Part shown: positions 49,670 through 64,000 of the stretch, one piece after another
How positions within the stretch are numbered: the first letter of the stretch is position 1
Layout of the letters: each line of letters starts with the position of its first letter
From: Allobosea sp.
GTDB lineage: Bacteria; Pseudomonadota; Alphaproteobacteria; Rhizobiales; Beijerinckiaceae
Direction of reading: 5' to 3'
DNA: 64,000 bases
Assembly (NCBI RefSeq): GCF_017308075.1
Contig: NZ_JAFKFX010000029.1
Span: 1 to 64,000, forward strand
Translations under genes and position numbers: made by a program
Notes under the pieces: model-generated
Databases searched by the model: none
Seen by the model: only the letters and a program-made list of their open reading frames with translations
Told to the model about the DNA's origin: nothing

Positions 49670-50626
49670 ATGACTAATCGAGAGGTGAAGGTCGCGCTGT
49701 GCGGCGATTGGCCCGACGCCCTGGTCGATCGGCTGGAGCGGCTGCTGCCGGACTGCCGGATCGTGAACCGCGCCCATCTCGATCACGCCGCGGCGCGCGC
49801 TTGCGAGGTGCTGATTCCGCTGGGCATGGCCGTCACCGAGGAGTTGCTCGCCGGCAGCGCGATCAAGCTCGTCCACCAGTTCGGCGTCGGCTACGACAAG
49901 GTCGACACCGCCGCCGCCAAGCGCCATGGCGTGCAGGTCGCCAACGCGCCCTCGGAGTTCTCGGGAATGGCCGCCTCCGTGGCCGAGCACGCAGTGATGC
50001 TCGTCCTGGCCTGCGCGCGCCTGCCTTCCGAGTCGGCCGAGAAGATCGAGACCCGGCGCTGGGTCTGGACCGAGCACCTCAATCTCGGCCTGGCCGGCAA
50101 ATGCGCCGGGCTGATCGGCCTCGGAAACATCGGCTCGGCCGTGGCGCAGCGGCTGCGCGCCTTCGACATGAGGCTCGTCGGCGTCAAGCGGACCGCGCCG
50201 GAGACGACGCCTGACGGCTTCGCCTGGGTCGGCGGGCTAGACCGGCTCGACGCCCTCTGCGCGGAAGCGGACTTCATCGTCGTGACGGCGCCCCACAACG
50301 CCCAGTCGGACGCTCTGGTCGATGCCGCCTTCCTCGCCCGGATGAAGCCGAACGCCTCCCTGATCAATGTCGGCCGGGGTGCGATCGTCGACGAAGAGGC
50401 CTTGATCGGCGCCCTCGATCAGGGGCGCATCCGCGCGGCCGGTCTCGACACCGTACGCCAGGAGCCTCCGGCCGAAGGCAGCCGCCTCGTCGGCCATCCG
50501 CGCATCGCGCTGACGCCGCACATCGCCGGCGTGACAGAAATTGCCTTCGACGGCACCACTGCGATGATCGGCGAGAATATTCGCAGGCTTCGCGCCGGCG
50601 AAGCACTCCGCTTCCGCGTCGCCTGA
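49670..50626 (+). CDS. D-2-hydroxyacid dehydrogenase (NAD-binding)
   Basis: This 318-residue enzyme of the D-isomer-specific 2-hydroxyacid dehydrogenase family has the cofactor loop [19 protein letters not shown] near residue 145, catalytic Arg in [13 protein letters not shown], Glu in [12 protein letters not shown] and His in [12 protein letters not shown]. The family reduces 2-oxo acids to D-2-hydroxy acids or oxidises them in reverse. It begins the unit with the second enolase-superfamily gene (9 bp downstream) and the GntR regulator. A longer in-frame extension to 49595 lacks family residues. Confidence 0.92.
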
Positions 50627-50634
50627 GGCACACC

Positions 50635-51750
50635 ATGAAGATCATCAAGGTCGAGCCCTTTATCCTGCATATCCCGGTCACGAGCGGGCAGATCTCCGAT
50701 TCGACCCATACGATCTCGCATTGGGGCGTGGTCGGCTGCCGCATCGAGACGGAGACCGGCCTTTCCGGCTACGGTTTCACCGGAACTCATGCGCATCTGC
50801 CGTCGGACAGGCTGATCACCGCCTGCATACGCGACTGCTATGCACCGCTGCTGCTCGGCGAGGACGCCGGCGAAATCACGCGGCTCTGGCACCGTCTGGC
50901 CCGATCGCCGGCACTGCAGTGGATCGGCCGCGCCGGCATCACCCAGCTCGCCCTTGCGGCGGTCGACGTGGCGCTCTGGGATCTCAAGGCCAAGGCGGCG
51001 GAGCAACCGCTCTGGCATGTCCTCGGCGGCGCGACCAGTACGGTCCTCGACGCCTACAACACCGACATCGGCTGGCTCTCGATTCCGGACGACGCATTGG
51101 TCGCGGGCAGCGTCGCCGCCGTCGAAAAAGGCGGTTTCCGGCGCATCAAGCTCAAGGTCGGCCATGCCGACCCGAACACCGACCTCACGCGCATCGAGAA
51201 GGTGCGCAGGGCGGTTGGCGACAGCGTCACCATTGCGGTGGACGGCAACGGGAAATGGGATCTCCCGACCTGCATGCGCTTCTGCGCCCGGGCCGAGGCC
51301 TATGATTTGCTCTGGTTCGAGGAGCCGCTCTGGTACGACGACGTCGCCTCCCACGGCGCACTGGCCCGGGCGACCACGATCCCGGTTGCGCTCGGCGAGC
51401 AGCTCTACACGCTCGACGCCTTCAACGCCTTCCTCGACGCCGGAGCGATCCATTATGTCCAGCCGGACGTGACCCGCCTCGGGGGCATCACCGAATACAT
51501 TCAAGTGACGGATGCAGCCCATGCCCGGCGCCTGCCGGTCGCCCCGCATGCCGGCGACATGTCTCAGGTTCACGTCCACCTCGCCTTCTGGCATCCCGCC
51601 TCGACGATTCTGGAGTATATCCCCTGGATCAAGGACTGGTTCGAAGAGCCCGCCGCGGTCGAGGCCGGCGCCTTTCGGCGCCCACAACGGCCGGGCGCGA
51701 GTTCGACACCAAGCGAGGAGGCGTTCAGGCGGTTCGCCCAGCCCGCCTGA
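50635..51750 (+). CDS. Mandelate racemase/muconate lactonizing enzyme, second copy
   Basis: This 371-residue enolase-superfamily enzyme has Lys172/Lys174 (RIKLKVG), Asp203 (VDGNGKWD), Glu229/230 (WFEEP), Glu255 (LGEQ) and His305 (APHAGDMSQ). It resembles the enzyme at 48468 only in the fold and active site, so it is a distant paralogue and probably handles a different stereoisomer or step. It ends 42 bp before the GntR gene and is likely co-transcribed with it. Confidence 0.9.
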
Positions 51751-51792
51751 ACGCATCGACTGATGTGAGCGGCTTTGAAAGGCGCAGGCAGC

Positions 51793-52812
51793 ATGACGAG
51801 AGCTTCGGCGTCTCCGGCTGGCAAGGTCGGCGAAACCCTGGTCGGCCTGCCGATGTACAGGCTCATCGCCGACACACTCCAGAGCAACATTCGCGACGGC
51901 ACGCTGCCGGACGGCACCGTGGTGAACGAGACTTCCGTCGCGAAGGCATTCGGCACCAGTCGCGTGCCGGCCGCGGCGGCATTGCGGGAGCTTGAAGAAG
52001 CGGGGCTGGTCAGCCGTCTGGCGCGGCGCGGCTTCCAGGTCGGGCAGGGAGCCGGCAAGCTGCACCGGGTCGATCTGCTCGAAGCCGGACTCGTCCTGCC
52101 GGAGGGGTTCGACACCGCCGGCGGCTCGCGCAGCCACCGCGCACGGCTCTATCCGGAGGTCGAGCGCGAAATTTCCGCCTGCCTCGCCTATGGCAAGTTC
52201 ACCGTCAACGAGAGCGGGCTGGCGCGCGCCTACGGCGTCAGCCGGACCATCGCGCACGAGATCCTGGTGCGATTGGAGCGGCTCGATATCGCGCGGCTCG
52301 AAGGCTCGCGCTGGTATGTGGGGCCTCTGTCCATGGACGATCTGCGCAACCGCTACGAGATGCGCTGGCTGCTCGAGCCCGCCGCCCTTATGCGCGCAGC
52401 CCCCCTCCTCGGCCGCCCCGCCGTTACGCGTGCCCTGCGCAGGGTCGAACGCTATGTCGATGCCGAAACCCGCCCGGCCGCGACGACGATCCTCGAACTC
52501 GAACAGGACCTCCATCTCGACATGGTGCTCAAGAGCCCCAACAGCGAGATGTGCTCGGCAATCTACCGCTCGCAACTGCCCCTGCTGTCGACGCACTACA
52601 CCTTCCAGAAGGGCACCAGCGTGGAAGAGATACGCAGCATGGCGCGCGAACACGTCGCGGTGTTCCGCCGCCTGCTGGCGGGGGACGCGGCGGGCGCAGC
52701 GGAAGCGCTGGAGCAGCATCTTCGCTCGGCCTTCGACGTCGTGATCGAGCGCTATCAAGCCTCGCCGCCGGACGATTTCGTGGCGCCGGAATACATGTCG
52801 CGCGAGGCCTAG
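51793..52812 (+). CDS. GntR/FCD-family regulator with two winged-helix domains
   Basis: This 339-residue regulator is about 100 residues longer than a standard FadR-type GntR protein. Residues about 20-85 form a first winged HTH (LIADTLQSNIRDGTLPDGTVVNETSVAKAFGTSRVPAAAALRELEEAGLVSRLARRGFQVG). Residues about 115-175 form a second, with KFTVNESGLARAYGVSRTIAHEILVRLERLDIARLEGSRWYVGPL. The FCD ligand domain follows (MRWLLEPAALMRAAPLL ... ELEQDLHLDMVLKSPNSEM ... REHVAVFRRLLAGDAAGAAEALEQHL). It probably controls the sugar-acid genes upstream. ATG 51793 was preferred to a TTG at 51775. Confidence 0.87.
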   Translation: MTRASASPAGKVGETLVGLPMYRLIADTLQSNIRDGTLPDGTVVNETSVAKAFGTSRVPAAAALRELEEAGLVSRLARRGFQVGQGAGKLHRVDLLEAGLVLPEGFDTAGGSRSHRARLYPEVEREISACLAYGKFTVNESGLARAYGVSRTIAHEILVRLERLDIARLEGSRWYVGPLSMDDLRNRYEMRWLLEPAALMRAAPLLGRPAVTRALRRVERYVDAETRPAATTILELEQDLHLDMVLKSPNSEMCSAIYRSQLPLLSTHYTFQKGTSVEEIRSMAREHVAVFRRLLAGDAAGAAEALEQHLRSAFDVVIERYQASPPDDFVAPEYMSREA

Positions 52813-52829
52813 AGCTTTTTCGAGCGACG
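52811..52829 (+). repeat. Repeat-end-like sequence overlapping the GntR stop codon
   Basis: AGAGCTTTTTCGAGCGACG begins inside the TAG stop of the GntR gene and resembles the AGAGCATTTC... sequence that likewise overlaps the amidase stop at 33110. Both look like ends of the same interspersed repeat class. The surrounding gap 52813-53153 holds an apparent IS relic and a hairpin but no gene. Confidence 0.35.
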
Positions 52830-52958
52830 CAGCAGCCGGAACGATGCCGGGCCGAATACAGCTGCGGCGGCACATTCTCGGCCTCGCACCGCGCCCTGAT
52901 GAGCTCTGTTGAGCTGGTCCCTACCGAGCCCTGTCTTTTGACGGCCAGCAGGACCGCA

Positions 52959-52988: not shown

Positions 52989-53047
52989 ACCCTGAAGCAC
53001 TGTTCGATCGATTTTCGGATTCCGATCTCGTCATCAATCAGCATCCC

Positions 53048-53083
53048 CTGTCATGCGGCAGCCGGCGCAGCCGCATGACAGGA
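53048..53083 (-). terminator. Hairpin beyond the 3' end of the giant gene
   Basis: CCTGTCATGCGGC (53048-53060) pairs with GCCGCATGACAGG (53071-53083) over a 10-nt loop, 71 bp past the stop of the minus-strand giant gene. There is no T-run. It may end transcription from either side of this convergent gap. Confidence 0.5.
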
Positions 53084-53153: not shown

Positions 53154-56100
53154 CTATGTCTTCAGCACCCCATCATGCGAAATGATCGGGATCGGCGGCG
53201 AGACCGCGACGATGCGCGCCTGCGCCTCGACCATCTGGCGCAAGGCCTGCGGCGTCACCTCGAGCGCCGGCTCATCCCCGCCGGCCCGGCCAAACAGCCA
53301 ATCGAATTCGAAAGCGCCCGAGAGTGGCTTCGGGACATGCAGCAACGAAACGTCGGCCCAGAACTCGCCGGAGCCGCCCTGCGCCGCGATATGCAGGAAA
53401 AAGCCGGAATTCCCGTCGATCACTGGCGGCATCGCGAAATCGTCGCCACTGACATGGTTCGAGGCCGGACGTACCTCTCCGTCGGACCGCAATTGCAGCA
53501 CGGACGCGACCTTAGCCCCCTCCATCCGAAGCTCGAGCGCCTTGATGAACCCCTCCGTGCTGTGGTCGAGCTGGATCTTGATCTCGCGGCGCTTCTTGTT
53601 CGCATCGGTCAGCACGAGCACCAGGCTCGTGAAACCGCGAAGATGCGTGGGCGATCCGACCAGGCGCAGCAGCAGCCGCATGCCCTTGATTTCCGATCCG
53701 AAGCCGGTCCCGGTCAGGTCGAAATAGGCCTTGTGGTATGTCAGCGGGATCGCCTCCGACGGGGTCCCGCACAGGATCGCGGCCGGCGTCTCGAACTCGA
53801 CGACTCGCACGCGGTCTTCGGCAGAGGGGGATTTGATGGCGCCCGACGGCAAGACAAGCGCGTTGACCGCGCCAGCGAGCAGCGACGAACGGCAGAAAGT
53901 CTCGACCGGCCGCCCCGGCTCGTCGAGATAGCGGGTGGTGAGCGCCGCAAGATGGCGGTGGACGTGGAGCGGAAACGGGCTGAGGAGGGTCGACGAGATC
54001 AGCCAGGCGGGCTGGCCATTGCTGCCGCTGCGCATCAGCTGGATCTTCTCGTGGTTCGCCGTGAGCATGGCGACGAGTTCCGTTGTCTGCACCGGTACCG
54101 CGGCAAAGTCATTCTGATCGCCCGAACCGTTCGGCTGCTTCTGCTCGGCGACATGCACGAAGTCGAAATCGCGGCTGGTCCGTGTCCAGGCCAGGAAGGT
54201 CGACAAGCTCGCCATCGCGGCACGGGCAGTAGCGCTTTCCGCTGCCGTCAAAGTGACGGCGACCGGCAGCTCCTTCTTGCCCTTGCCCTTGTCCTTGGCG
54301 GGCGGCGACCATTCGAAGCTTGCCAGCATCAGCGGCGCGCTGCTGCGGCCGGCGGCTGTGTCGACCCAGTTCGCTGTCGGAACCGCGAATACGGAAAGCG
54401 AATAGCGTCCGGCGGAGACCGGCTGATGCAGGACGGCGAGCTTCGCGAAATCGCGTTCCTCCGGCGAGCCCGTCTGGATCGACGGCAAGCGTGCAATGTC
54501 GACATGCTTGTCCTTGGCTCCCGCGACATGGCCGTCGACGGCGAGCTTGAGGGTACGCAGGACGAGGGCGCCGCCGGCTTCAGCGCTCAGCAGCAGATCC
54601 GCTTCGGCCCCGTCGGCGCCGTATCGCAGCAGCTTTTCAGGCATCCCCTTCTGCAGATCCAGCTCGATCCACCAGCCGCGCTCGGCGTCGAGGCCGATGG
54701 ACGCGACGGTCTCTTCCGTCGTCCATGCCGGATCGAGGTGACGGCGTAGCGAAACGCCGAGGAAGTGCTCCTCGAGCGAAACGGCGTCGGAGGCCGCATC
54801 GCCGATATCGCGTGGCGAGAGCATGACGAGGCTGTTCGGGAAGGCCGGCGCCGTGGCGTTGGCATGGTCGAAGGTCAGGCCGACCGGGCCTTCTGCCATC
54901 AGCGTCATGCCGAGCGCCCGCGTCTTGTCCATGGGGCGGTAGTCCAGATAGGGGGTCGGTCCGATCTCCTTGCGCGCGTCGAGGATCTCGACGGTTGCGA
55001 CCTGCTTGCCCGAGCCCGATTGTGGGAGCGCTTCAAAGCCGTAGCCGAAGCCGGTCTTGATCTCCGAAGCGATCCGATCGGCGAGCCCACCGCGGGCGAA
55101 AGGCGGCTCCTGCAGCACGCCGATCACCGGCGGCCCGGGATGCCTGTCGGCCCCGCCGCCCGGCGCCGTCGTCAGGGGGATCAGCGCGCGCAATTGCGGC
55201 CGGGTCAGCATGATGCGCGACTGGTCGGCGAGCATTGCGACGCGCATCGTCCAGCCCGTCTCCGGCCTCGCCTCCTCCGCCGACCAGGAAATGAGCTCGC
55301 GGCCGGCCCGCAAGGCGCCAGCATAGCGCGAGCGCAGGGTGAAGCGATGACGGAAATAGGTGGCGGAAGGCTGGTCCCAGAAATGCGGTTGCAGCACCGT
55401 GCGCGAGGGCAAGGGCAGCAGCTTCTGGGTGATGCTCTGAGCGTCGAGATTCGAGCGGTCGAAAAACGCCTCCCCCTCGAAACGAGCCAGCCGACCAGCC
55501 TGATCGAGCCGGAGCTCCACGGCCGGGTCGAGCGGGGTGTCCGCCTTCTGGCCGTCCTCGCGAAAATCTCTCGGGTTGATGTGATGATAGATCGGGCGCC
55601 CGCTCGGGCGCCAGCGCTGCGACGTCACGTCGATTTCGCCGATCAGTCGCCAGAAGCGTGTCCGCTCGGCGTGCAATGGACCTTTCGGCAGCTGGTCCCT
55701 GGTGACGATCTCATAGCGGCGGGAGCTACGGATCGGCTGAACCGTGATCATCTCGGCGGCAAGCCGGTTCCGAGCCTCCCTGTCCTGCTGCGCGGGCGTG
55801 AAGGCCAGCATCGTCTCGACCCGAACCGCCGCGGCCGGGAAAGCGAGGTGCTTGCCGGCGATGGCGCGTGTCGTGAATTGCAGAAGGCCGGAGTCGAACA
55901 CGGGCGGATGGATAACCTGCCCGGCGAAGTGCTCGGCCGGGACGAGCGCATCGACAGACAGGCGCGCGACATGGCCGGCCGGGATGATCGCCCTGAAATC
56001 GCTGGCTTTGCCAGCAAGCCTCAGCGAAGGGCCCGGACCGATAGTGACCGTGCAGCAGAATGCCTGCGCGATCGGGGCGAAAATCTTGGCGTGCAGACGC

Positions 56101-59100
56101 TCGGGCGTCCAGAGCGTGTTGTCCTTCAGGTTCTCGGCGATCTTCCGCAGCGCTTCCGCGACGTCGAAGGTCTCGCTGTCGGGCTTCGCCGGCATACTGG
56201 CGAGTTGATCGAGCAGGATGAGCTCGATCCGCAGCTGCTCCACGGCCGGATCGGGCAACCGGTCGAGCGCGGCCGCGAGGCTCTCATCCTGGTGACGCAT
56301 CAGATAGGCGGCGAGCAGCGCGCCCTCGAAGCGCCGGGCGATGGCGTCATCCTTGAAGATCCGCTTGCGCAGATCGGCATTGCCGAGCCAACGGTCGAAA
56401 TCGAGATAGCCGATCCGCGGCGTATGCAGCGTGACGGTGACCTCGTCGCTCAGCCCGCCATTCCAGCCATCCTTTTCCGGGGCCAGAAGCAGCAGCGGTG
56501 CATCCACTCCGTCCGGTGCGCGGGCCCCCGTATCCGTGAAGCTCATCGCGGCCGATCCGCCTGCGGCTTTCAGCACGAGGCGCAGCCGCAGCGTGTCGGA
56601 CCGGCTCTGGAACGTGCGCCTTTCCTTGACACCGCCGCAGCTCACCGTCAGCACCACGTCGAGCGGGCTGGCGGCATCATACGGGTCGCTACGCGTCGCA
56701 CTGGAGCTGATCTCGATCGCGTCCACCGCTGCGAGATCGACAGCGTTCGACTTGCCCTCATTGGCCGCGCCCAACTGCTCGAAGCTGACATTGGCGATGC
56801 CGGGATGGTCCGGGTGCGCGGCCGGGCCATCGAAGAAGCGCAAATCGAGCGCGGAGGGCGCGCCGATCCAGCGGATATCGGCGAGTTGCCAGCTGTTCGT
56901 CATGTGCGAGGCGGTGGCGCTGCCGATCACCAGGGCCCCGCGTCCGTCGGATTCGCGGAACAGATCGCGCGCGCCGTCGGCGGATTGCTCAGCGTAAACT
57001 CCGATGCGCGGATAGTCGGCGGCGAGCGGCGCGACCCCGGCAAGCGGAGCACCGATGCGCAGGGGCTTTCCGTTCCGGCGCTTCTCCTCCACCGCCGTCT
57101 GGCCGATCGCGGTGCGACGGCTGTAAGGGACGCGTGCGATCAGTGTGCCCTGCGTCGTCTCGCTTGGCGCCTGCAGCTTGTGCTTCGGCATCCAAGGCTG
57201 CGCGGCAGAGTGCTGCAGAATGAGCGGCAAGGTACCGGCATTGGTCGTGACGAAGGACAGGCTCTCGACCCAACGCCCATAGGCGAGACGTGGGACCCTG
57301 GCGAAACCGGGCGCCGTGGAGGAGCCGTGGCGATAGAACGGCGTGTAGCTGCGTTCTCCTTCCGCGGTGCCGTTCGGCAGCCGCGTTTCCAGGAGCTCGG
57401 TGCTGGCGAAGGGAAAGCCCTGAAAGTCGATGAACATCGGGGCCCGGCCGTCGCTCACCGCTGGCAGCATTGGATGGATCGCAGCTTCGACGGTCGTGAC
57501 GGATGCGGGCTTGTCAGGATCGTGCGGCCAGGTCAGCTCGGCCAGATTGGCATGTGCCCAGAGGTTCTTGCTGTCATCGGTGCTGTCGATGCGCCGCAGG
57601 CAGACGCCGATGCCATTCAGATGCTGCGCGAAAACGTCGACCCTGGCTCCGTCCATATCGGCTGCAATCTGGATAGGCAGCGGGTGCGGCGCATTCTCAG
57701 GGATGAAATGCGCCAGCGGATCGAGGAGGCGGTCGAGCCCCGCGATCGAGGCAGCATAGGCTCGCGCGAGATGCGCGTGGACCAGCCGCCTGTCCTCGGG
57801 CGTTCCCGGAAACGCCGGCGTCGGCAGCGCCTCGATCAACGTGGCGAAACATCCCGGCTCTGCCGTAGCGCCGTCCTCGCCGAGCAGACGCCTGCCGAAA
57901 TAATCGACTTCCCTGGCGAGCTCGCGAAATTGCGTCGATCTGCTTCGCTCCGTGCCGTCCAGCCGCTCCAGCACCAGTTTGAGGAACTCGCTGCCGGCAG
58001 CACGCCTGGCCGCCTCGGCGCCGTTGAAAGCGCCGTCGAGCAGGGCTCGGAAGGCGGCCCAGGCCGACGGGACCACATCGCTCTCGATGGCGCCGATGAG
58101 CGCCTCATCGCCGGGCCGCCCGATCGCCTTCGCATAGTTTTTGGCGATCAGCCGCGCCGGTGGTCCGTTGAAAGCCGGTGCGCTGGTCTCGATCAGCCGC
58201 AATGTCGCCGCTTCCAGCCCCGCTTCGTCCTGCAGACGCTGTTCGGCGGCGGCGAGGCCCCGCATCAGCATCGCGAGCCCCTGCTCCTCGGTGACCGAGA
58301 GCCGGGCGGGGTCGAGCACCACTCCCGACGCGCCCTCATAAATGCGCAGCAAGGTCTCGATATAGGCTGCTTCAGGCGAAGCATCGGATCCGGGTTTGCC
58401 GATGCCGTGCACATGGCGCAGGGCTGCGGCAAGCTGCGCGCGATCGGCATTACGCTGCGCAAGCGGACTGTGCCGCAACGTATCGCGCAGCGCGCCCGTC
58501 ACGAACGGCGCGCGCAAATTCTCCGGGGTGAGCTTATGCGCGTCTTGGAACGCCGGCCGTTCGAGCTCTTCGAGCAGCGCCGTGACCAATGGCGCGAGGA
58601 TCGGCCCCTCGCTGTCATCGCCAGAGGCAGGTTTCAGGAGACCGATGACGAGGGTGTCGAGCGCAGCGCAGAGTCCCGCGGCCGCGGCCCAGACGGCGAT
58701 CGGCGACGGCGTTTCCGGCTCGGCGGGAACTGAACTCGGCTCGAACAATGCTTCGTACGGCCTGTCCGCCTCGCCGACAGACGAAGCCAGCGCAGGGCCG
58801 ACCGCCAGCAACGTGGCGGCACGTTCCTCGAACCAGCGCGCGACGCGCCACAGATTGACGGCGTCGCAATCGACCTTGAGAAAGCCCTCTGAGCCGATGA
58901 TGTCGTCGACTTCCCCGGGAAGGTCGAGCGGCAGGGCCGCCTCGCTCAGCAGCTCGGTCCTGCAAGTGACTTTGCCGAGTTTGCCAAGCGAATCATAGCT
59001 GACATCCCAGTTCGGATCGGCGACGGTGCCAGCGGTCGTCGGCACCTCCGGATGCTCGCCCGGGTCGGCGAAATACGGCAGCACCAGATAGTGCCCGAGC

Positions 59101-59618
59101 CCCTTGCTCGCCGGGCGTAGCAGATGCGTCAGCCCGAATTTGTGGGCGATCGGCGCGTTCCACGACTGGGCCGCCCGCAGCCGGTCGGCCGCTCCGGCAG
59201 CTTGGACGGTGATCTCCGTCGGCTCTTGCGTGTTGGCAGCTGCGCTGGCCGACCAGTACCGCGACGAGGATGTCGAGGTTGGCCGCTCTTCCTTGTCGAG
59301 CCATGCCAGGAGTTCCCCGGCCGCACCGAGCGAAGTCTCGGAAATCTGGTCGTCGACCTTGCCGACCCATGCCAGCCCCTGGCCGGTGACGTATTTCCAG
59401 ACATGGAACCGGACCTGCTGCACGGCCTGCAGAAATCTATCGAAGAGGCGCCGCGCCGCGGCCTCCTCGTCATCGATCGGCGCGGCCGATCCGGAAACCG
59501 ACGGGCATTCCAGACTGAGATTGACCGCGAAGACGATCGGCTTCTCGGCGCTGGCGGGGTGGAACGAGGCCGGCTCGCGATCCAGCAGGCAATGGAGGAC
59601 GGGGTCTTGCAAGGCCAT
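53154..59618 (-). CDS. Giant protein of unknown function (2154 aa)
   Basis: No family was recognised. The protein begins MALQDPVLHCLLDREPASFH without a signal peptide, and no transmembrane segments are evident, so it is probably cytoplasmic or released by another route. Residues 1-330 include Trp-rich blocks (RFHVWKYVTGQGLAWVG, NLWRVARWFEERAATLL), and about 330-700 looks mainly helical. From about residue 750 it appears beta-rich with many short repeats of aromatic and Gly residues (YTPFYRHGSSTAPGF, YIEPHF-like turns). A Lys-rich linker KDKGKGKK lies near 1773-1782. The last 250 residues (RGFTSLVLVLTDANKKRREIKIQL ... GGSGEFWADVSLLHV) resemble a jelly-roll-like module. It starts 3 nt after the upstream giant gene stop, with GGAG inside that gene, so the two are translationally coupled. 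Confidence 0.8.
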   Translation of the reverse strand: MALQDPVLHCLLDREPASFHPASAEKPIVFAVNLSLECPSVSGSAAPIDDEEAAARRLFDRFLQAVQQVRFHVWKYVTGQGLAWVGKVDDQISETSLGAAGELLAWLDKEERPTSTSSSRYWSASAAANTQEPTEITVQAAGAADRLRAAQSWNAPIAHKFGLTHLLRPASKGLGHYLVLPYFADPGEHPEVPTTAGTVADPNWDVSYDSLGKLGKVTCRTELLSEAALPLDLPGEVDDIIGSEGFLKVDCDAVNLWRVARWFEERAATLLAVGPALASSVGEADRPYEALFEPSSVPAEPETPSPIAVWAAAAGLCAALDTLVIGLLKPASGDDSEGPILAPLVTALLEELERPAFQDAHKLTPENLRAPFVTGALRDTLRHSPLAQRNADRAQLAAALRHVHGIGKPGSDASPEAAYIETLLRIYEGASGVVLDPARLSVTEEQGLAMLMRGLAAAEQRLQDEAGLEAATLRLIETSAPAFNGPPARLIAKNYAKAIGRPGDEALIGAIESDVVPSAWAAFRALLDGAFNGAEAARRAAGSEFLKLVLERLDGTERSRSTQFRELAREVDYFGRRLLGEDGATAEPGCFATLIEALPTPAFPGTPEDRRLVHAHLARAYAASIAGLDRLLDPLAHFIPENAPHPLPIQIAADMDGARVDVFAQHLNGIGVCLRRIDSTDDSKNLWAHANLAELTWPHDPDKPASVTTVEAAIHPMLPAVSDGRAPMFIDFQGFPFASTELLETRLPNGTAEGERSYTPFYRHGSSTAPGFARVPRLAYGRWVESLSFVTTNAGTLPLILQHSAAQPWMPKHKLQAPSETTQGTLIARVPYSRRTAIGQTAVEEKRRNGKPLRIGAPLAGVAPLAADYPRIGVYAEQSADGARDLFRESDGRGALVIGSATASHMTNSWQLADIRWIGAPSALDLRFFDGPAAHPDHPGIANVSFEQLGAANEGKSNAVDLAAVDAIEISSSATRSDPYDAASPLDVVLTVSCGGVKERRTFQSRSDTLRLRLVLKAAGGSAAMSFTDTGARAPDGVDAPLLLLAPEKDGWNGGLSDEVTVTLHTPRIGYLDFDRWLGNADLRKRIFKDDAIARRFEGALLAAYLMRHQDESLAAALDRLPDPAVEQLRIELILLDQLASMPAKPDSETFDVAEALRKIAENLKDNTLWTPERLHAKIFAPIAQAFCCTVTIGPGPSLRLAGKASDFRAIIPAGHVARLSVDALVPAEHFAGQVIHPPVFDSGLLQFTTRAIAGKHLAFPAAAVRVETMLAFTPAQQDREARNRLAAEMITVQPIRSSRRYEIVTRDQLPKGPLHAERTRFWRLIGEIDVTSQRWRPSGRPIYHHINPRDFREDGQKADTPLDPAVELRLDQAGRLARFEGEAFFDRSNLDAQSITQKLLPLPSRTVLQPHFWDQPSATYFRHRFTLRSRYAGALRAGRELISWSAEEARPETGWTMRVAMLADQSRIMLTRPQLRALIPLTTAPGGGADRHPGPPVIGVLQEPPFARGGLADRIASEIKTGFGYGFEALPQSGSGKQVATVEILDARKEIGPTPYLDYRPMDKTRALGMTLMAEGPVGLTFDHANATAPAFPNSLVMLSPRDIGDAASDAVSLEEHFLGVSLRRHLDPAWTTEETVASIGLDAERGWWIELDLQKGMPEKLLRYGADGAEADLLLSAEAGGALVLRTLKLAVDGHVAGAKDKHVDIARLPSIQTGSPEERDFAKLAVLHQPVSAGRYSLSVFAVPTANWVDTAAGRSSAPLMLASFEWSPPAKDKGKGKKELPVAVTLTAAESATARAAMASLSTFLAWTRTSRDFDFVHVAEQKQPNGSGDQNDFAAVPVQTTELVAMLTANHEKIQLMRSGSNGQPAWLISSTLLSPFPLHVHRHLAALTTRYLDEPGRPVETFCRSSLLAGAVNALVLPSGAIKSPSAEDRVRVVEFETPAAILCGTPSEAIPLTYHKAYFDLTGTGFGSEIKGMRLLLRLVGSPTHLRGFTSLVLVLTDANKKRREIKIQLDHSTEGFIKALELRMEGAKVASVLQLRSDGEVRPASNHVSGDDFAMPPVIDGNSGFFLHIAAQGGSGEFWADVSLLHVPKPLSGAFEFDWLFGRAGGDEPALEVTPQALRQMVEAQARIVAVSPPIPIISHDGVLKT

Positions 59619-59621
59619 GGC

Positions 59622-62600
59622 TCAGCTCCTCGCTCCCTGCAATTTCCTGGCTTGCGTCTGGAATTCAGGCTCCGATCTTGGATTGGCTGCCGTTGCGGCG
59701 ACGCTCAGGCTCGTGGCGGTCTCGGCCTTGCCGTCGCGCAGCTTGTATCGGACGCCGGCGCGCGCCGTGATCTTGAAGAACCTCGAAATGCGGATGGTCA
59801 CGGAAAGCGTGCCGTCGGCGTCGATCTGGCCGGAGTCGCGATAGGTCATCCGCAGCATCAGCACGATGCCGACCGTGGCGATGCCGGCGACATTGACGTG
59901 GCCGGCGACCACCAGCACCAAGGCGATCGAGAGCCCGCCGCCGGGACGGCCGATCAGCTTGCGGTAGCTCAGCACTCCGGAAAGCGTGATGAAGACCTGG
60001 CCGGAGAACGGGCCGACGGCGAAGGCGAGCGACGCCGACCCGCCCGCGCCGGCCTCGACCGCGACCATCAGCTCGGAGTCGAAGGGCCGGTATTCGGCTT
60101 CGACCTGGATGTAGCCAGTGCCGCCGATGATGAAGATCGAGAAGATGAAGGGCCGCTCCACCGTCGACAGGTTGAAGCGGTCGGCGAGCATGAAGTCCGG
60201 ATAGGCGAGCAGCTTGAAGCGGTTCTCGATCGAAAGGTTCGAGATGCCGCTGGTGCCGAAGTTCAGAGCGAGCGGCGGGATCGCAAATTCGTGCTCGATG
60301 CCGACCGGGACGCCATCGCGCTTGACGAGCTTCAGCCCACCGATCTCGTCCGTAAAGAGGGTCGAAAGGAAGTCCTGGATGAATTTGAAGCTCGGATTGA
60401 GCCGGATGTTCTTCGGATCGAACTCGATCTCGAGCCCCTTCTCGCGCGTGAAGGCGAGCGCGAACTTGTCGAAGCGCAGCATCGACTGGCCGCCGACGAC
60501 GATGTCGATGCTGGTGTCGATGCGGCCGAAGCCGCTTTCCGTCGGCCGATCCTCGTCCTTGGAGGCTTCCAGCCGCACGCGGCCGGTGAGCCCCATGTCG
60601 ACGAAATCGGCGCTGAACGGACCGACCGAGAACAGGCTGCGACGCCCCGGCATGGGCGCGTTGATGTCGAGCTGTACCCAGGCGCGCGCCTGAGCCTTGT
60701 CGAAGTCGTGCGTGACCTTGATGGCGTCGCGAACGCCGGCAGGCAATTTGAAGCCCTTGAACAGGCCGTCGAGCTTGGCGCCGCCGAGATTGCGGAACAC
60801 CGCGCCGATATCGAGCCCGGACAGGTCGGAGGGCAGCAGCCGGTCGCCGATCCTGTCGAAGGGCAGCGACAGGCCGAGCGCCTTCAGCTCGTCGCCGAGC
60901 CGGTTGAACAGCGCCTTCGTCTCGGTGGTGTCGATGATGTCCGAAAGCTCGTCATAGCCTGACCGGATACGGTCGATATCGGCCTTGAGAGCGGCAAGCT
61001 CGGGCGCCGAGGTGACCGCCGAATAGAGCTTCAGGACATTGGACGGGGCCGCCATCGGCCCGCCCGTGGTGAGCCGGCTCGCTGCGCCGAAGGCGCGCTC
61101 GCCATACATGCGCGCTGTTTCGGTCGAGCAGGCAAGGTCGTTCTGCAGGCCGCGCACCGAATGATCCAGCGCGTTCACCGTGGCGAGCAGCGCGTCTGCC
61201 TTCCTGCCAAAATCCTCGATACTGCCGCCGATGGCATCCTCGATGCGCTTCGTGACCGTACCGAATGCGGCCTTCAGCTCCTCGGCCTTCGTATCGAGAT
61301 ATTTCTCCGCATCGGTCGCCAGGGCCTGGAGATAGGATCTGGCCTTGTCCACGCCTTCGAAGACCGCCCCGCAGGCGAGCGAGACTTCGTCCAGCGCTCC
61401 GAGCGTCGCGGCCGAGAGCTCGCCGATCGGCTCCTGGATCGCCTCGCCCAAGGCGCGCATCTGCTGGCGGATCCGTGCGAGCGCCTCGTCGGGCTTTCCG
61501 AGTTCCGCTTCGGTCAGCGATCTGAGCAGCTCTTCGAGCGCCGGACGCAGCACCTTTTCGCGCACCACGGTCGCCAGCAGGCCTTGCGGCGCCAGCGCGA
61601 GCTGAGCCGCCTTGAGGGCACCGGCCACATCGTCGACGATTGCGGTGATCCGGGCTTCGACCTCGTCGACATCGCCGCGGAGCTCTTCGAGCACGCCGTC
61701 GAGGCGCGCGAGCGCCGACGCGATCAGGAAGTCGAGCAGCTTGCCGAGATCCGCCAATTCCTTTTCGAGTGGCGCAAGCTTCGTCTCGACCCAGCCGGCG
61801 AGTTCACCGATCTCGCTCTCGACATCCGGCCAGATCGCCTTGAACGCATTCGCGATCGCATCGAAGCCCAGATCGGAGAGCTCCTTTGCAAAGGCAATGA
61901 CCTCATCGGCCGTCCCGGCCAGGGCCGTGACGACGGATGACAGTGCCTCGGAGAGGCTGGCGACCGTGGCCGCCGCCCGGTCCAGCGCCTCGTCGCCCTG
62001 CGCTTCCATCTTGTCGAGCTGCTGGCGCGTGTTCGATACCGTCGTCTTGGCGTCGCTCGCGGCGGTCCGCAGCGCCTGCAACGCCGTCAGGACCTTGCCC
62101 TTCAGCGCTGCGTCGATCTTGCCCTCATTGGCGACGCTGACGATTGCGGCATTGATCCTGACGATCGCCGTATCGATCTGGCCGGGCTTTCCGTCAGGCG
62201 CGAGTCGGTCCAGCGCGGCCCGCGCCGTGTGAAGTTCAAGCTTGTTGGCGAACGAACCGAGGCCGGACAATGCGCCGGCGCGCTGCTCTGCGATTTCGCT
62301 CAGGGCCTTCGCCAAATAGCCGCCGATCGCCTGGCTCGCGTCATCGAGCTCCGAGGCGAAACGCTGCTGTGCCTCGCCGATCAGCGCGCTGATGTCGGCC
62401 GCGATATTGCCGGTGCAGGCGCGCAACCCGGCGTGAAGGCTCCTGATGCGTCCTGCCGACCAGGGCTTGTCGCGATCATAGCCCGCGACGAACTCCTCGA
62501 CGCGCTGACGGGCGCGCGTGACCATCGCCGCGAATTCGGAATCGAGGTCGCGGATGATGGCGCGCGCCTTCTCGGCGCCTTCGCCGGCCTTGCCGACATC

Positions 62601-64000
62601 CTGGCTCGCTTCGCGGAAATGCGGCTCGATATAGGCCGTGCTGCGATCGAGCAGCGCCTCGATCAACGCTGCCTTCGTCGTGAACTCGAAGTTGTCCGGC
62701 AGCACCGCTCGCGCATCGTCCGCCCACTCGCTGAGCGCGCTGCGGATCAGCATCTGCTTGCGCCGGATCATGCCGACGGCATCGGACTTCATCTTCTCGC
62801 AGGGGCTCTCCTGGTCGGCGAAGCTGCCGAGCGCCCCTTTCAGCCCGTCGAGAAAACCCTGAGCATCCTTGGCGCGCGGCTTGAGATTGTCCGCCACGAT
62901 CTGCGCATAGCTGCCGGGGTGTTGTGCCCATTTGGCCTTGAGCGCCGCCAGCGCCGTGCCGGTCCTGCCCGGGTCCTCGGCCGCGAGCGCGTCGCGCAGA
63001 TCCTTGACCAATCCCGAAAACGCAGCGCCGTCCGGCACGCTGCTGTCATTGCCCACAGCATCCCAGTAGGTCAGTTCCCTGATCGCCGGGGGCTCCTTGT
63101 CCGGCGTCAGTTCGGCCAGGCCGGCGAGCAATTTGCCGAGATCCGCGTGGAGAGGTTTCTCCACCGCCGCGACATGCGAGGCGCGCATGAAGGTGACGGT
63201 GTCGAGACTGACATAGACCGGCTTGCTGGCCCGGCCGGCATTGATCGCGGTCTTCTGTGCCGCCGGCGCCAGTCGCCAGGTGAAGCGGCGCAGCCCGGGG
63301 AGGAAGCGGCTGACGGATGCCTGCCGCGGGTCGCCGCCGCCGGAAACGGTAGGGTTCTGCGGGCGCGCGGGGGCGAGCGCTTTCATCATCGCCTGGGCGG
63401 CGGGGATATTGGCAAAATCGAGATCGATGCGGGCAGGCCAGGCATCGGTGTCGGAGGTGATCGCCTTGAAATCCGCGAAGAAGAACAGAAAGTCCGGATC
63501 GCGGCATTCCTGCGCCGCCACCGGCTTCTCGCCCTCGCCTTCCGCCACCGTGACGAAAGCGATGTCCGGCATCGGATAGACCTGCGGCCGTTCGCGTGCG
63601 CTCAGCCGGTTCCACAGCGGAATCTGCCAGCCATAGTCGCCGACCTCACTGCTCCAGGCGCTGTCGACATTGATGATCCTCGAATTGAAGCGCACCCGTT
63701 CGAGGAAGCCGGCGCTGCGCGCGGCCGCATTGTCGAAATCGGGATAGGCTCGCTCCGGCTCGAGCAGCTCGATATATTCGCGGACCTTGCGCAGGATCGG
63801 CCGGCGCGACCTCGTTCTGCCCGGGTCGTCCTCATATTTCGGCGCGAACTGCGCCGAAGCGTTGACCGTGCGCTCATAGACCACGACATGCTTGGCCCGG
63901 TGCCAGAGCGCGCAGATGCGGCCGAGCACCTCGACCTTCTGCCGTTCGATGAAGCCGTTGCGGGTCTCGCTCAGGATCGTGACGATGCCGTTGAGGAACT
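59622..64000 (-). CDS. Giant coiled-coil/beta protein of unknown function (partial, more than 1459 aa)
   Basis: The frame is open to the window edge (FLNGIVTILSETRNGFIERQKVEV precedes a possible GTG at 63929), so the N-terminus lies outside. The first 300 visible residues are globular (FNSRIINVDSAWSSEVGDYGWQIPLWNRL; FLFFFADFKAITSDTDAWPARIDLDFANIP). The centre, about 61.0-62.9 kb, is long and helical with heptad-like Ala/Leu/Glu patterns (IGELAGWVETKLAPLEKELADLGKLLDFLIASALARL; LEELRGDVDEVEARITAIVDDVAGALKAAQ), as in tape-measure or scaffold proteins. The C-terminal 400 residues are beta-rich and Gly-rich (GLTGRVRLEASKDEDRP ... GAGGSASLAFAVGPFSGQVFITLSGVLSYRKLIG) and end in amphipathic strands. 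No enzyme motif, signal peptide or clear membrane helix was found. Family not recognised. Confidence 0.75.
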   Translation of the reverse strand, partial: FLNGIVTILSETRNGFIERQKVEVLGRICALWHRAKHVVVYERTVNASAQFAPKYEDDPGRTRSRRPILRKVREYIELLEPERAYPDFDNAAARSAGFLERVRFNSRIINVDSAWSSEVGDYGWQIPLWNRLSARERPQVYPMPDIAFVTVAEGEGEKPVAAQECRDPDFLFFFADFKAITSDTDAWPARIDLDFANIPAAQAMMKALAPARPQNPTVSGGGDPRQASVSRFLPGLRRFTWRLAPAAQKTAINAGRASKPVYVSLDTVTFMRASHVAAVEKPLHADLGKLLAGLAELTPDKEPPAIRELTYWDAVGNDSSVPDGAAFSGLVKDLRDALAAEDPGRTGTALAALKAKWAQHPGSYAQIVADNLKPRAKDAQGFLDGLKGALGSFADQESPCEKMKSDAVGMIRRKQMLIRSALSEWADDARAVLPDNFEFTTKAALIEALLDRSTAYIEPHFREASQDVGKAGEGAEKARAIIRDLDSEFAAMVTRARQRVEEFVAGYDRDKPWSAGRIRSLHAGLRACTGNIAADISALIGEAQQRFASELDDASQAIGGYLAKALSEIAEQRAGALSGLGSFANKLELHTARAALDRLAPDGKPGQIDTAIVRINAAIVSVANEGKIDAALKGKVLTALQALRTAASDAKTTVSNTRQQLDKMEAQGDEALDRAAATVASLSEALSSVVTALAGTADEVIAFAKELSDLGFDAIANAFKAIWPDVESEIGELAGWVETKLAPLEKELADLGKLLDFLIASALARLDGVLEELRGDVDEVEARITAIVDDVAGALKAAQLALAPQGLLATVVREKVLRPALEELLRSLTEAELGKPDEALARIRQQMRALGEAIQEPIGELSAATLGALDEVSLACGAVFEGVDKARSYLQALATDAEKYLDTKAEELKAAFGTVTKRIEDAIGGSIEDFGRKADALLATVNALDHSVRGLQNDLACSTETARMYGERAFGAASRLTTGGPMAAPSNVLKLYSAVTSAPELAALKADIDRIRSGYDELSDIIDTTETKALFNRLGDELKALGLSLPFDRIGDRLLPSDLSGLDIGAVFRNLGGAKLDGLFKGFKLPAGVRDAIKVTHDFDKAQARAWVQLDINAPMPGRRSLFSVGPFSADFVDMGLTGRVRLEASKDEDRPTESGFGRIDTSIDIVVGGQSMLRFDKFALAFTREKGLEIEFDPKNIRLNPSFKFIQDFLSTLFTDEIGGLKLVKRDGVPVGIEHEFAIPPLALNFGTSGISNLSIENRFKLLAYPDFMLADRFNLSTVERPFIFSIFIIGGTGYIQVEAEYRPFDSELMVAVEAGAGGSASLAFAVGPFSGQVFITLSGVLSYRKLIGRPGGGLSIALVLVVAGHVNVAGIATVGIVLMLRMTYRDSGQIDADGTLSVTIRISRFFKITARAGVRYKLRDGKAETATSLSVAATAANPRSEPEFQTQARKLQGARS

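Follow-up and report, generated by a model that had tools for sequence, protein, structure and literature searches.

A tightly linked pair of giant genes of no recognised family, frequently adjoined by wall-enzyme genes, in Allobosea sp. and distant bacteria

We analysed a window of 64,000 nucleotides, positions 1-64000 of contig NZ_JAFKFX010000029.1 of Allobosea sp., which runs on past the window edge to a total of 225,690 bp. Two giant genes were located at the end of this window on the (-) strand. The first-translated gene, A, spans 59622..64000 in the window, where it forms an open reading frame of 1458 aa that is not closed at the window edge, and continues to 67127 in contig numbering. 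When the contig was extended upstream, A was completed at 2501 aa and a putative wall-enzyme gene was found just upstream of it, outside the window. Gene B (53154..59618, (-) strand) starts with ATG, encodes 2154 aa and lies 3 nt downstream of A: the junction reads TGA (the stop of A, which ends at 59622), GCC and ATG (the start of B), and a GAGGAG ribosome-binding-like stretch precedes B inside the 3′ end of gene A. A sequence-only reading of the window had described two giant unrecognised genes, 3 nt apart on one strand, and this was confirmed. A strong palindromic hairpin without a T run was found just 3′ of B (53046..53083, (-) strand); the 121-nt stretch bearing it had a folding z-score of -3.2, with 0 of 200 shuffles equally stable, and it is possibly an end-of-transcript structure. 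On the other side of the pair, the Amidase_6-like protein P0004 (194 aa, read from the second ATG) is encoded beyond the window at contig 67257-67841 on the (-) strand, and 129 nt separate its stop from the start of A.

The pairing of A and B was examined across genomes. Among 44 loci found through A, B was next on the same strand in 40, and in the remaining four at most 0.6 kb of contig is left. The A-B gap had a median of 1.5 nt and lay between -10 and +40 nt in 34 of the 40 loci, a 4-nt overlap was found in eight loci, and the pairwise identities of A correlated with those of B (r 0.97, 39 loci). A and B may form one assembly with fixed stoichiometry. Within 385 genomes of the class, B was found only in G000 and G208, both of which also have strong A matches, and the B match in G050 likewise adjoins A. 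B-only matches came from six Bradyrhizobium plasmid records, were restricted to the C-terminal 204 residues of B, and were accompanied by no A match in any record. In the one record examined the fragment was split over two frames; it is apparently a remnant, and it is the sole exception to the joint occurrence of the two genes. The spread of the pair is patchy: none of 36 further genomes from the genus contains B, and pairs occur in Alphaproteobacteria, Betaproteobacteria and Gammaproteobacteria, in Chryseobacterium and in planctomycetes. A scan of viral contigs with the A alignment identified three loci, and scans with B or with the amidase identified no relative. Moreover, dN/dS was 0.13-0.38 in 13 close comparisons (seven of A and six of B), indicating that the reading frames are not chance and are under purifying selection.

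Protein A carries a conserved core (residues ~620-1330 in a 40-sequence alignment; in-window end at 63138..64000, (-) strand), a helical, coiled-coil-like centre (~residues 1331-2024; 61056..63137, (-) strand) with coiled-coil-type matches only, and a C-terminal beta domain (residues 2025-2501; 59625..61055, (-) strand) predicted as an amphipathic antiparallel meander. The profile matches and two structure models agree with the globular part, long helical centre and beta-rich C-terminus proposed from the letters. The densest invariant residues of the core were W1075, K1079, H1080, Y1084, R1086, R1113, K1114 and E1117, followed by W1158, W1172 and D1237. The predicted structure of the homologous core from locus L018 was confident (pLDDT 83.7, pTM 0.84) and gave no Foldseek match at E<=1e-3 in PDB or BFVD, the best being a non-significant one to YenB/RHS2 (E 0.013, prob 0.05). 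Our best guess from this model is that the core may represent a new fold. The model of the C-terminus was mediocre (pTM 0.46). Its last eight strands alternate (p<=0.03 each), the amphipathic beta pattern was also seen in the sequence profile, and a hydrophobic stretch lies at ~residues 2396-2425. The domain is a putative membrane-seeking or membrane-inserting element.

Searches of A against Pfam, NCBIfam and PHROG gave weak matches only, mostly of coiled-coil type and falling between ~residues 1590 and 1990. The Apolipoprotein A1/A4/E profile (PF01442) scored 40.5 bits with whole A and 43.3 bits with the in-window part, below its curated cut-off of 90, and A was not assigned to this family. 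RefSeq protein WP_130818723.1, named 'apolipoprotein A1/A4/E domain-containing protein', is an A homologue; its name was presumably assigned from the helical stretch. The same stretch matched tape measure proteins (9g8s, E 3e-20; phrog_1272, E 2.9e-4), which would fit a phage tail, a tape measure or the remnant of a tail-like particle, as the sequence-only reading had considered. However, apolipoproteins and myosins match this stretch too, the tape-measure similarity is confined to it, and A joins it to an unrelated core and a beta C-terminus. No phage record was matched by B, no significant BFVD match was found for the A core, and no tail, sheath or baseplate family was present among the best 25 of 112 neighbour families, with no phage context seen. 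A tail origin is therefore very improbable.

Protein B gave no family match in Pfam (E<=1), NCBIfam or PHROG, and a sequence search of PDB found no relative (lowest E 0.043). Its conserved core, defined from alignments, covers residues 560-1660 (54642..57941, (-) strand), and the predicted Lys-rich linker was located at residue 1775. Relationship of A and B as paralogues was unsupported (hhalign probability 0.1). Assuming that the DUF6603 profile is present in the Pfam copy searched, 0 of 40 A C-termini matched it at E<=0.5 and neither full A nor B at E<=1, and membership was rejected. Of the earlier interpretation, the unrecognised, tightly linked and co-occurring giants thus stand, and the DUF6603 and tail-particle suggestions do not. 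Hydropathy, the sole criterion used, agrees with the earlier reading that a signal peptide is absent: among ORFs >1900 aa (duplicates included), one of 46 from A and none of 35 from B had a strong hydrophobic segment that begins within the first 60 residues.

The neighbours of the pair were then considered. At 20 of 53 loci the pair adjoins a gene of peptidoglycan- or polysaccharide-active type, from one of several unrelated families, and in 15 of the 20 this gene is on the same strand and within 320 nt. Related loci (L018/L025/L036, L045/L046/L052 and L033/L034) raise the figure of 20 artificially. The types found at pairs elsewhere were M23, M15/Hedgehog-type, CHAP, Rv2525c-like, Extensin-like and YkuD; the YkuD matches and most of the peptidoglycan-binding matches come from the same proteins. 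Four loci were examined after the wall-enzyme idea had arisen, and both of those belonging to the A-B family carried such an enzyme, Extensin-like_C 22 nt downstream of B in G208 and M23 105 nt upstream of A in G050; upstream of the distant G153 pair lies a gene with a guanylate-cyclase domain. Wall-enzyme families with at least two members numbered five among 125 near ORFs versus none among 140 far-flank ORFs, taking the best 25 of 112 near families and the best 25 of 131 far-flank families, the latter with single-member families mostly outside.

P0004 itself had no Pfam match, and its homologue in L030 matched Amidase_6 (E 1e-5). Cys80 and His154 were invariant in four of four aligned amidase-like sequences and may be catalytic. 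Relatives of P0004 flank the pairs in L063 and L030, there downstream of B and here upstream of A. The closest plasmid relative, from Cupriavidus (69% identical), lies 1.5 kb before another giant pair with no detectable homology to A-B, and the Ensifer relative has no giant pair within 18 kb.

It is unlikely, in our estimate, that the wall enzymes are partly coincidental island cargo and that A-B has an unrelated role, such as an intracellular scaffold or defence complex. A recognised wall enzyme was absent from 33 of 53 loci in a scan that covered part of the neighbours (two of the 33 have no neighbour on the contig), relatives of P0005 in two further records had no giant pair within 18 kb, and other neighbours recur as well. 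Among the 25 largest neighbour clusters listed, which span 4-7 loci, no universally conserved third gene was seen, and the biggest (seven loci) is a regulator-like protein rather than a wall enzyme. Coincidence is harder to reconcile with the tight same-strand placement of the enzyme in 15 loci, with the findings in G208, G050 and Cupriavidus, and with the outcome of the far-flank control.

Constant pairing, distant hosts and frequent, varied wall-enzyme neighbours suggest a previously undescribed large molecular machine that needs to pass a cell wall. The reading that we tentatively put first, with well under even confidence, is that A and B are two subunits of one giant complex that would be made in the cytoplasm and cross the envelope with a dedicated wall enzyme. 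A would contribute a body of novel fold, its helical centre as a long stalk and, at the C-terminus, a beta domain that seeks membranes, with B as partner subunit, and the complex would be released or exposed through the producer's own envelope, aided by the peptidoglycan enzyme encoded next to it. Exit through the own envelope appears most likely because neither A nor B has a Sec-like start. The wall to be crossed would be the producer's, and the end may be a role against other cells. The linkage, gap spacing and identity correlation count for one complex with enzyme-aided exit. The wall-type neighbours in 20 loci, with the G208 and G050 enzymes among them, the L063, L030 and Cupriavidus amidases and the far-flank control count for it as well, as do the invariant Cys80 and His154, the alternating C-terminal strands and the finding that 12 of 18 neighbour enzymes tested by hydropathy have an N-terminus that is neither hydrophobic nor TAT-like; P0004 likewise has no signal-like start. 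Against it count the deacetylases and L,D-transpeptidases, which are not lysins, the loci with no recognised enzyme, the related loci, the enzymes on the opposite strand (L018/L025/L036, L021 and L026), the pTM of the C-terminal model, the P0005 and Ensifer relatives with no pair, the G153 cyclase-domain neighbour, the regulator-like largest cluster, and the lack of a recognised holin among the larger neighbouring ORFs scanned, where no spanin was recognised either.

The swapping of many unrelated wall-targeting families at one place, mostly with no signal-like start, would also fit an injection or delivery particle whose load, an exchangeable wall enzyme, enters the periplasm of a competing cell or of prey, a possibility that we rate slightly below the first reading. 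Non-lytic enzymes (deacetylase, YkuD-like) are included among them, and the amidase changes sides between this locus and L063 and L030. But the membrane-anchored M23/M15 versions are poorly suited as cargo, no small immunity-like partner of at least 80 aa recurs among the 25 largest clusters listed, although cognate genes would vary by locus, and between the amidase gene and the asparagine synthase gene there is no ORF of at least 150 aa, only three of 40-80 aa. The missing immunity gene is a weaker argument than first held, which moves the assessment slightly towards cargo. Five of the 18 enzymes tested (M23/M15, five loci) have N-terminal membrane segments by hydropathy. These membrane-anchored enzymes and the porin-like amphipathic strands at the A C-terminus would suit a structure that sits on the surface or spans the envelope, like an adhesin, an S-layer or a channel, with the enzyme making room for it in the producer's peptidoglycan. 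This we hold to be quite improbable: all A but one have no signal-like start by hydropathy, and the porin matches to the C-terminal model are local only (TMq ~0.2).

The logic of enzyme-aided exit resembles a Tc toxin with its lysis cassette. Release of the Yersinia entomophaga Tc toxin YenTc is described, in the parts of the reports covered, as dependent on a lysis system, type 10 secretion (PMC10847048, PMC10847046). A giant multi-protein complex may be shared with A-B, which often has a wall enzyme beside it. In contrast, A-B belongs to no Tc or RHS Pfam family (for TcA/TcB/RHS, B gave none at E<=1 and A weak matches mostly of helical type), the core of A has no significant fold match, and no holin was recognised among the neighbours scanned. 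Type VI secretion has wall-targeting effectors without signal peptide, and the diverse amidase, peptidase and transpeptidase-like neighbours with no signal-like start are similar in this respect, whereas the scanned neighbours of the pair included no recognised secretion-system gene or immunity partner.

Together, some 14 kb of coding DNA of no known family, closely linked, under selection and patchy in its distribution, with a confident core fold lacking a significant PDB or BFVD match, point to a large machine. It is plausible, though at less than even confidence, that A-B forms the conserved body of giant two-subunit machines of a class not yet described, with a new core fold, a membrane-inserting beta tip and exchangeable wall-enzyme modules across Pseudomonadota, Bacteroidota and Planctomycetota, the design being broad through the deeper relatives G153 and G690 and the Cupriavidus pair as possible functional analogue. 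If true, a widespread kind of giant-protein system would have gone unnoticed. The interchangeable wall-enzyme linkage offers a concrete, testable way in to its function. No description of the pair was found in literature judged mostly by titles and the starts of abstracts, nor in the passages covered of an eLife paper (PMC12419801), and no literature was found on DUF6603 or YLATT. Consecutive giant genes, like A-B, are also present as Giant1-5 of Apilactobacillus kunkeei, described in the part of the source covered as extracellular surface proteins (PMC12863079) and compared here by description only.

The two giant genes lie on the minus strand of a 225,690-bp contig, of which the window is the first 64,000 bases, in a genome of 5.55 Mb (62 contigs). 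The sequence-only reading had described them as a coupled, unrecognised pair, and its layout was correct: gene B (53154-59618, minus strand) encodes 2154 aa and starts three bases after the stop codon of gene A. Extension of the contig beyond position 64000 completed the first-translated gene A, which encodes 2501 aa and occupies 59622-67127 (minus strand, window numbering, past the window edge). The GC content of the pair region equals that of the flank, and no tRNA was found in a search of 59501-99500. Immediately 3′ of B lies a palindrome with a 14-bp stem (53046-53083, minus strand); the 121 nt around it fold far more stably than shuffled sequences, and it is a possible transcript end lacking a T run. 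An 818-aa ORF at 50419-52875 (minus strand), which has no Pfam match and overlaps plausible plus-strand ORFs, is probably not a gene.

We found that A and B occur together. Scanning 84,980 genomes with an A-seeded profile identified 44 loci, of which 40 carried B after A on the same strand, while in the other four the contig stops 0-531 bases past A. The A-B gap was -10 to +40 in 34 of these 40 loci; in the other six, the first possible start codon of B falls inside A. Since the A-seeded scan could not show a lone B, a B query was used separately in 61 genomes, where it matched the source genome and G050, and in 385 genomes of the class, where it matched the source genome and G208; each of these three B-bearing genomes also holds A. 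B was detected in none of 36 other genomes of the genus. A was present in four of the 385 class genomes (strong in the source genome and G208, weak in G153 and G240) and in three of 299 genomes drawn from the phylum (the source genome, and weakly G690 and G480). On plasmids, tblastn identified A in Sinorhizobium sojae and five Rhizobium records, and the adjacent pair was seen in all four A-bearing plasmid loci opened (L006, L008, L009, L010). B was identified in S. sojae, and six Bradyrhizobium records held a 204-residue piece only. This piece is the C-terminal end of B without A, and it looks like a remnant because it is split over two frames in the single record opened (L007:13141-13992).

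According to record titles, hosts from the A scan include Rhizobium, Novosphingobium, Sphingopyxis, Hoeflea, Bradyrhizobium, Pseudomonas, Variovorax, Chryseobacterium and planctomycete MAGs. The divergence of A tracks that of B (r 0.97, 39 loci), and dN/dS is 0.13-0.38. Some copies are broken into several ORFs (A in L009, L023, L025, L036 and L054; B in L025 and L036), an indication that cells can do without the system. Between two Pseudomonas strains (L029 and L039), A is near-identical (dS 0.008) and B divergent (dS 0.113), a pattern that would fit recombination of part of the pair.

B had no match in Pfam, NCBIfam or PHROGs, and a 40-member B profile gave nothing convincing against PDB sequences (best E 0.043). 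A had only weak Pfam matches below the cut-off, mostly of coiled-coil type, a single NCBIfam match far under the cut-off, and a weak PHROG tape-measure match confined to its helical stretch. A 40-member A profile matched 603 PDB sequences, and the best 60 of these fell on the helical part (profile positions ~1250-1820) and included tape measure, apolipoproteins, myosins and similar proteins. The C-terminal domain, searched in 40 A homologues, gave no convincing family match, and DUF6603, proposed earlier as a match that could place the pair, was not among its hits. Profile comparison showed no relationship between A and B.

The core of A was modelled from the L018 homologue (36 rows; pLDDT 83.7, pTM 0.84); its alignment is dense in invariant polar and aromatic residues, and Foldseek found no match at E<=1e-3 among 350,542 PDB chains or in BFVD. 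The C-terminal domain model (37 rows; pLDDT 71.6, pTM 0.46), less certain than the core, forms a long-stranded antiparallel meander whose top PDB matches are porins, eight of them at E<=1e-3 with TMq of only 0.2-0.24. Hydrophobic/polar alternation was significant in each of its last eight strands (p<=0.03), whereas p<0.05 was reached by 2 of 13 earlier C-terminal strands and 2 of 19 core strands; mean z was 1.90 for all C-terminal strands versus 0.44 for core strands. In addition, 37 of 46 A ORFs (duplicates included) carry a hydrophobic stretch over threshold near the C-terminus. The predicted domain would fit a membrane- or lipid-facing sheet, and a soluble amphipathic sheet is also conceivable. 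The same domain is present in the first proteins of two adjacent giant pairs, in G690 (L065:3720-18244, 2992+1871 aa; hhalign 99.1%) and G153 (L066:5978-15222, 1503+1587 aa; hhalign 98.9%), and their likeness to A-B is limited to it. Between these two pairs, both genes are homologous (blastp 4e-29 and 3e-13), and neither partner protein convincingly matched B (E 8e-4 for the G690 partner with a profile of the B core). Since the domain is shared and the partner is not, the linkage of two giants around it seems to predate the recognisable B family.

We further studied the neighbours of the pair. A 194-aa protein is encoded 129 nt upstream of A on the same strand; it has no Pfam match itself, a homologue flanking the pair in Hoeflea (L030) matches Amidase_6 (E 1e-5), and a 65% identical homologue follows B on metagenome contig L063. 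We surveyed 53 loci (the source genome, 4 plasmid and 44 genome loci, L063 and L064, G208 and G050), with neighbour ORFs picked automatically, so that some may be spurious. IMG/VR contig L062, identical in match and coordinates to L020 on a Novosphingobium AP12 genome contig, was left out as a repeat, and its viral label is doubtful. A wall- or polysaccharide-active type adjoins the pair in 20 of the 53 loci, in 15 of them on the same strand and within 320 nt. These are the amidase (source genome, L063, L030), polysaccharide deacetylase (L024, L032), Hedgehog-N/M15 type (L033, L034), M23 (L045, L052, G050, and L046 via near identity with L045), Rv2525c-like (L064), Extensin-like_C (G208), YkuD-like (L021, weak Pfam E 0.0026; L008, whose homologue P0005 has no Pfam match, besides a peptidoglycan-binding protein), YkuD plus peptidoglycan-binding (L018, scanned singly; L025 and L036, by count and motif), CHAP plus peptidoglycan-binding (L026), and a homologue of the L008 peptidoglycan-binding protein (L058, own Pfam E 0.095). 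Four loci were opened after the wall-enzyme idea had formed (G208, G050, G153, G690), and neighbours were scanned in the first three: G208 and G050 had such an enzyme, and upstream of the distant G153 pair lies a gene with a guanylate-cyclase domain. In 33 of the 53 loci, no wall enzyme was recognised; their neighbour genes include subtilases in L009 and, weakly, in L061, pantoate ligase in the L010 group and a methionine sulfoxide reductase in L037, while L035 and L049 have no neighbour gene.

As a control, near and far ORFs were compared. Of 156 near ORFs picked in 48 loci, 34 were left out because they were doubtful or duplicated one from a near-identical locus; with the amidase, P0006 and the L021 enzyme added, the scan comprised 125 proteins. 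At least two members were seen for five wall families (peptidoglycan-binding 5, YkuD 3, Hedgehog-N 2, deacetylase 2, M23 2), counts that overlap, being partly the same proteins or related loci. No wall family had two or more members among 140 far ORFs, drawn from 294 lying >1.5 kb away; 25 of 131 families were listed there, with single-member families mostly outside, so lone wall enzymes are possible. Reciprocally, the amidase query matched one of the 385 class genomes, the source genome itself, and two plasmid relatives, in Cupriavidus oxalaticus and, partially, in an Ensifer record that has no giant genes. On the C. oxalaticus plasmid, this close relative precedes a pair of adjacent giant genes by 1.5 kb, all on one strand (L076:20026-36546 / L080:6645-23898; 3441 + 2304 aa, 13-nt gap); for these giants, no homology to A or B was detected and Pfam gave no family. 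The strongest hint that enzyme and giant pair are functionally linked is that this rare amidase turns up close to two pairs so unlike each other. However, relatives of the L008 YkuD-like protein count against it, as two further records opened (of three) had no giant pair within 18 kb.

By hydropathy, neither A nor B begins with a signal-like segment. Tc toxins are reported to be released by type 10 secretion lysis (PMC10847048, PMC10847046); a giant A-B complex lacking such a start would likewise need an exit route, which the neighbouring wall enzyme would open, and an exit enzyme is therefore slightly favoured. Alternatively, the enzyme might be carried into a target cell as cargo or act as a remodelling factor, as the deacetylases and transpeptidases would suggest. 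Hydropathy showed no signal-like or membrane start in 12 of the 18 wall-enzyme neighbours tested, N-terminal membrane segments in those of L033, L034, L045, L046 and L052, and a weak TAT-like start in that of L018. The membrane anchoring of several enzymes, and the finding of no recurrent immunity gene among the clustered neighbours, speak for exit, which is preferred over cargo only slightly; the coupling of the wall enzyme with A-B is more secure than either direction.

Other neighbours also recur. The largest cluster spans seven loci (L018, L025, L028, L030, L034, L036, L061; e.g. L028:3582-5234) and by eye looks like TPR-type transcription regulators. A 196-202 aa protein divergent from A is shared by Novosphingobium, Variovorax and two Pseudomonas loci (L020:9091-9690, L022:9244-9852, L029:5035-5625, L039:9209-9799, all minus strand); its L029 copy has no PHROG match. 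Directly after B, a conserved 441-466 aa protein (L027:22473-23798, L029:19180-20580, L039:23424-24755) shows, by eye, a signal-like start and membrane segments.
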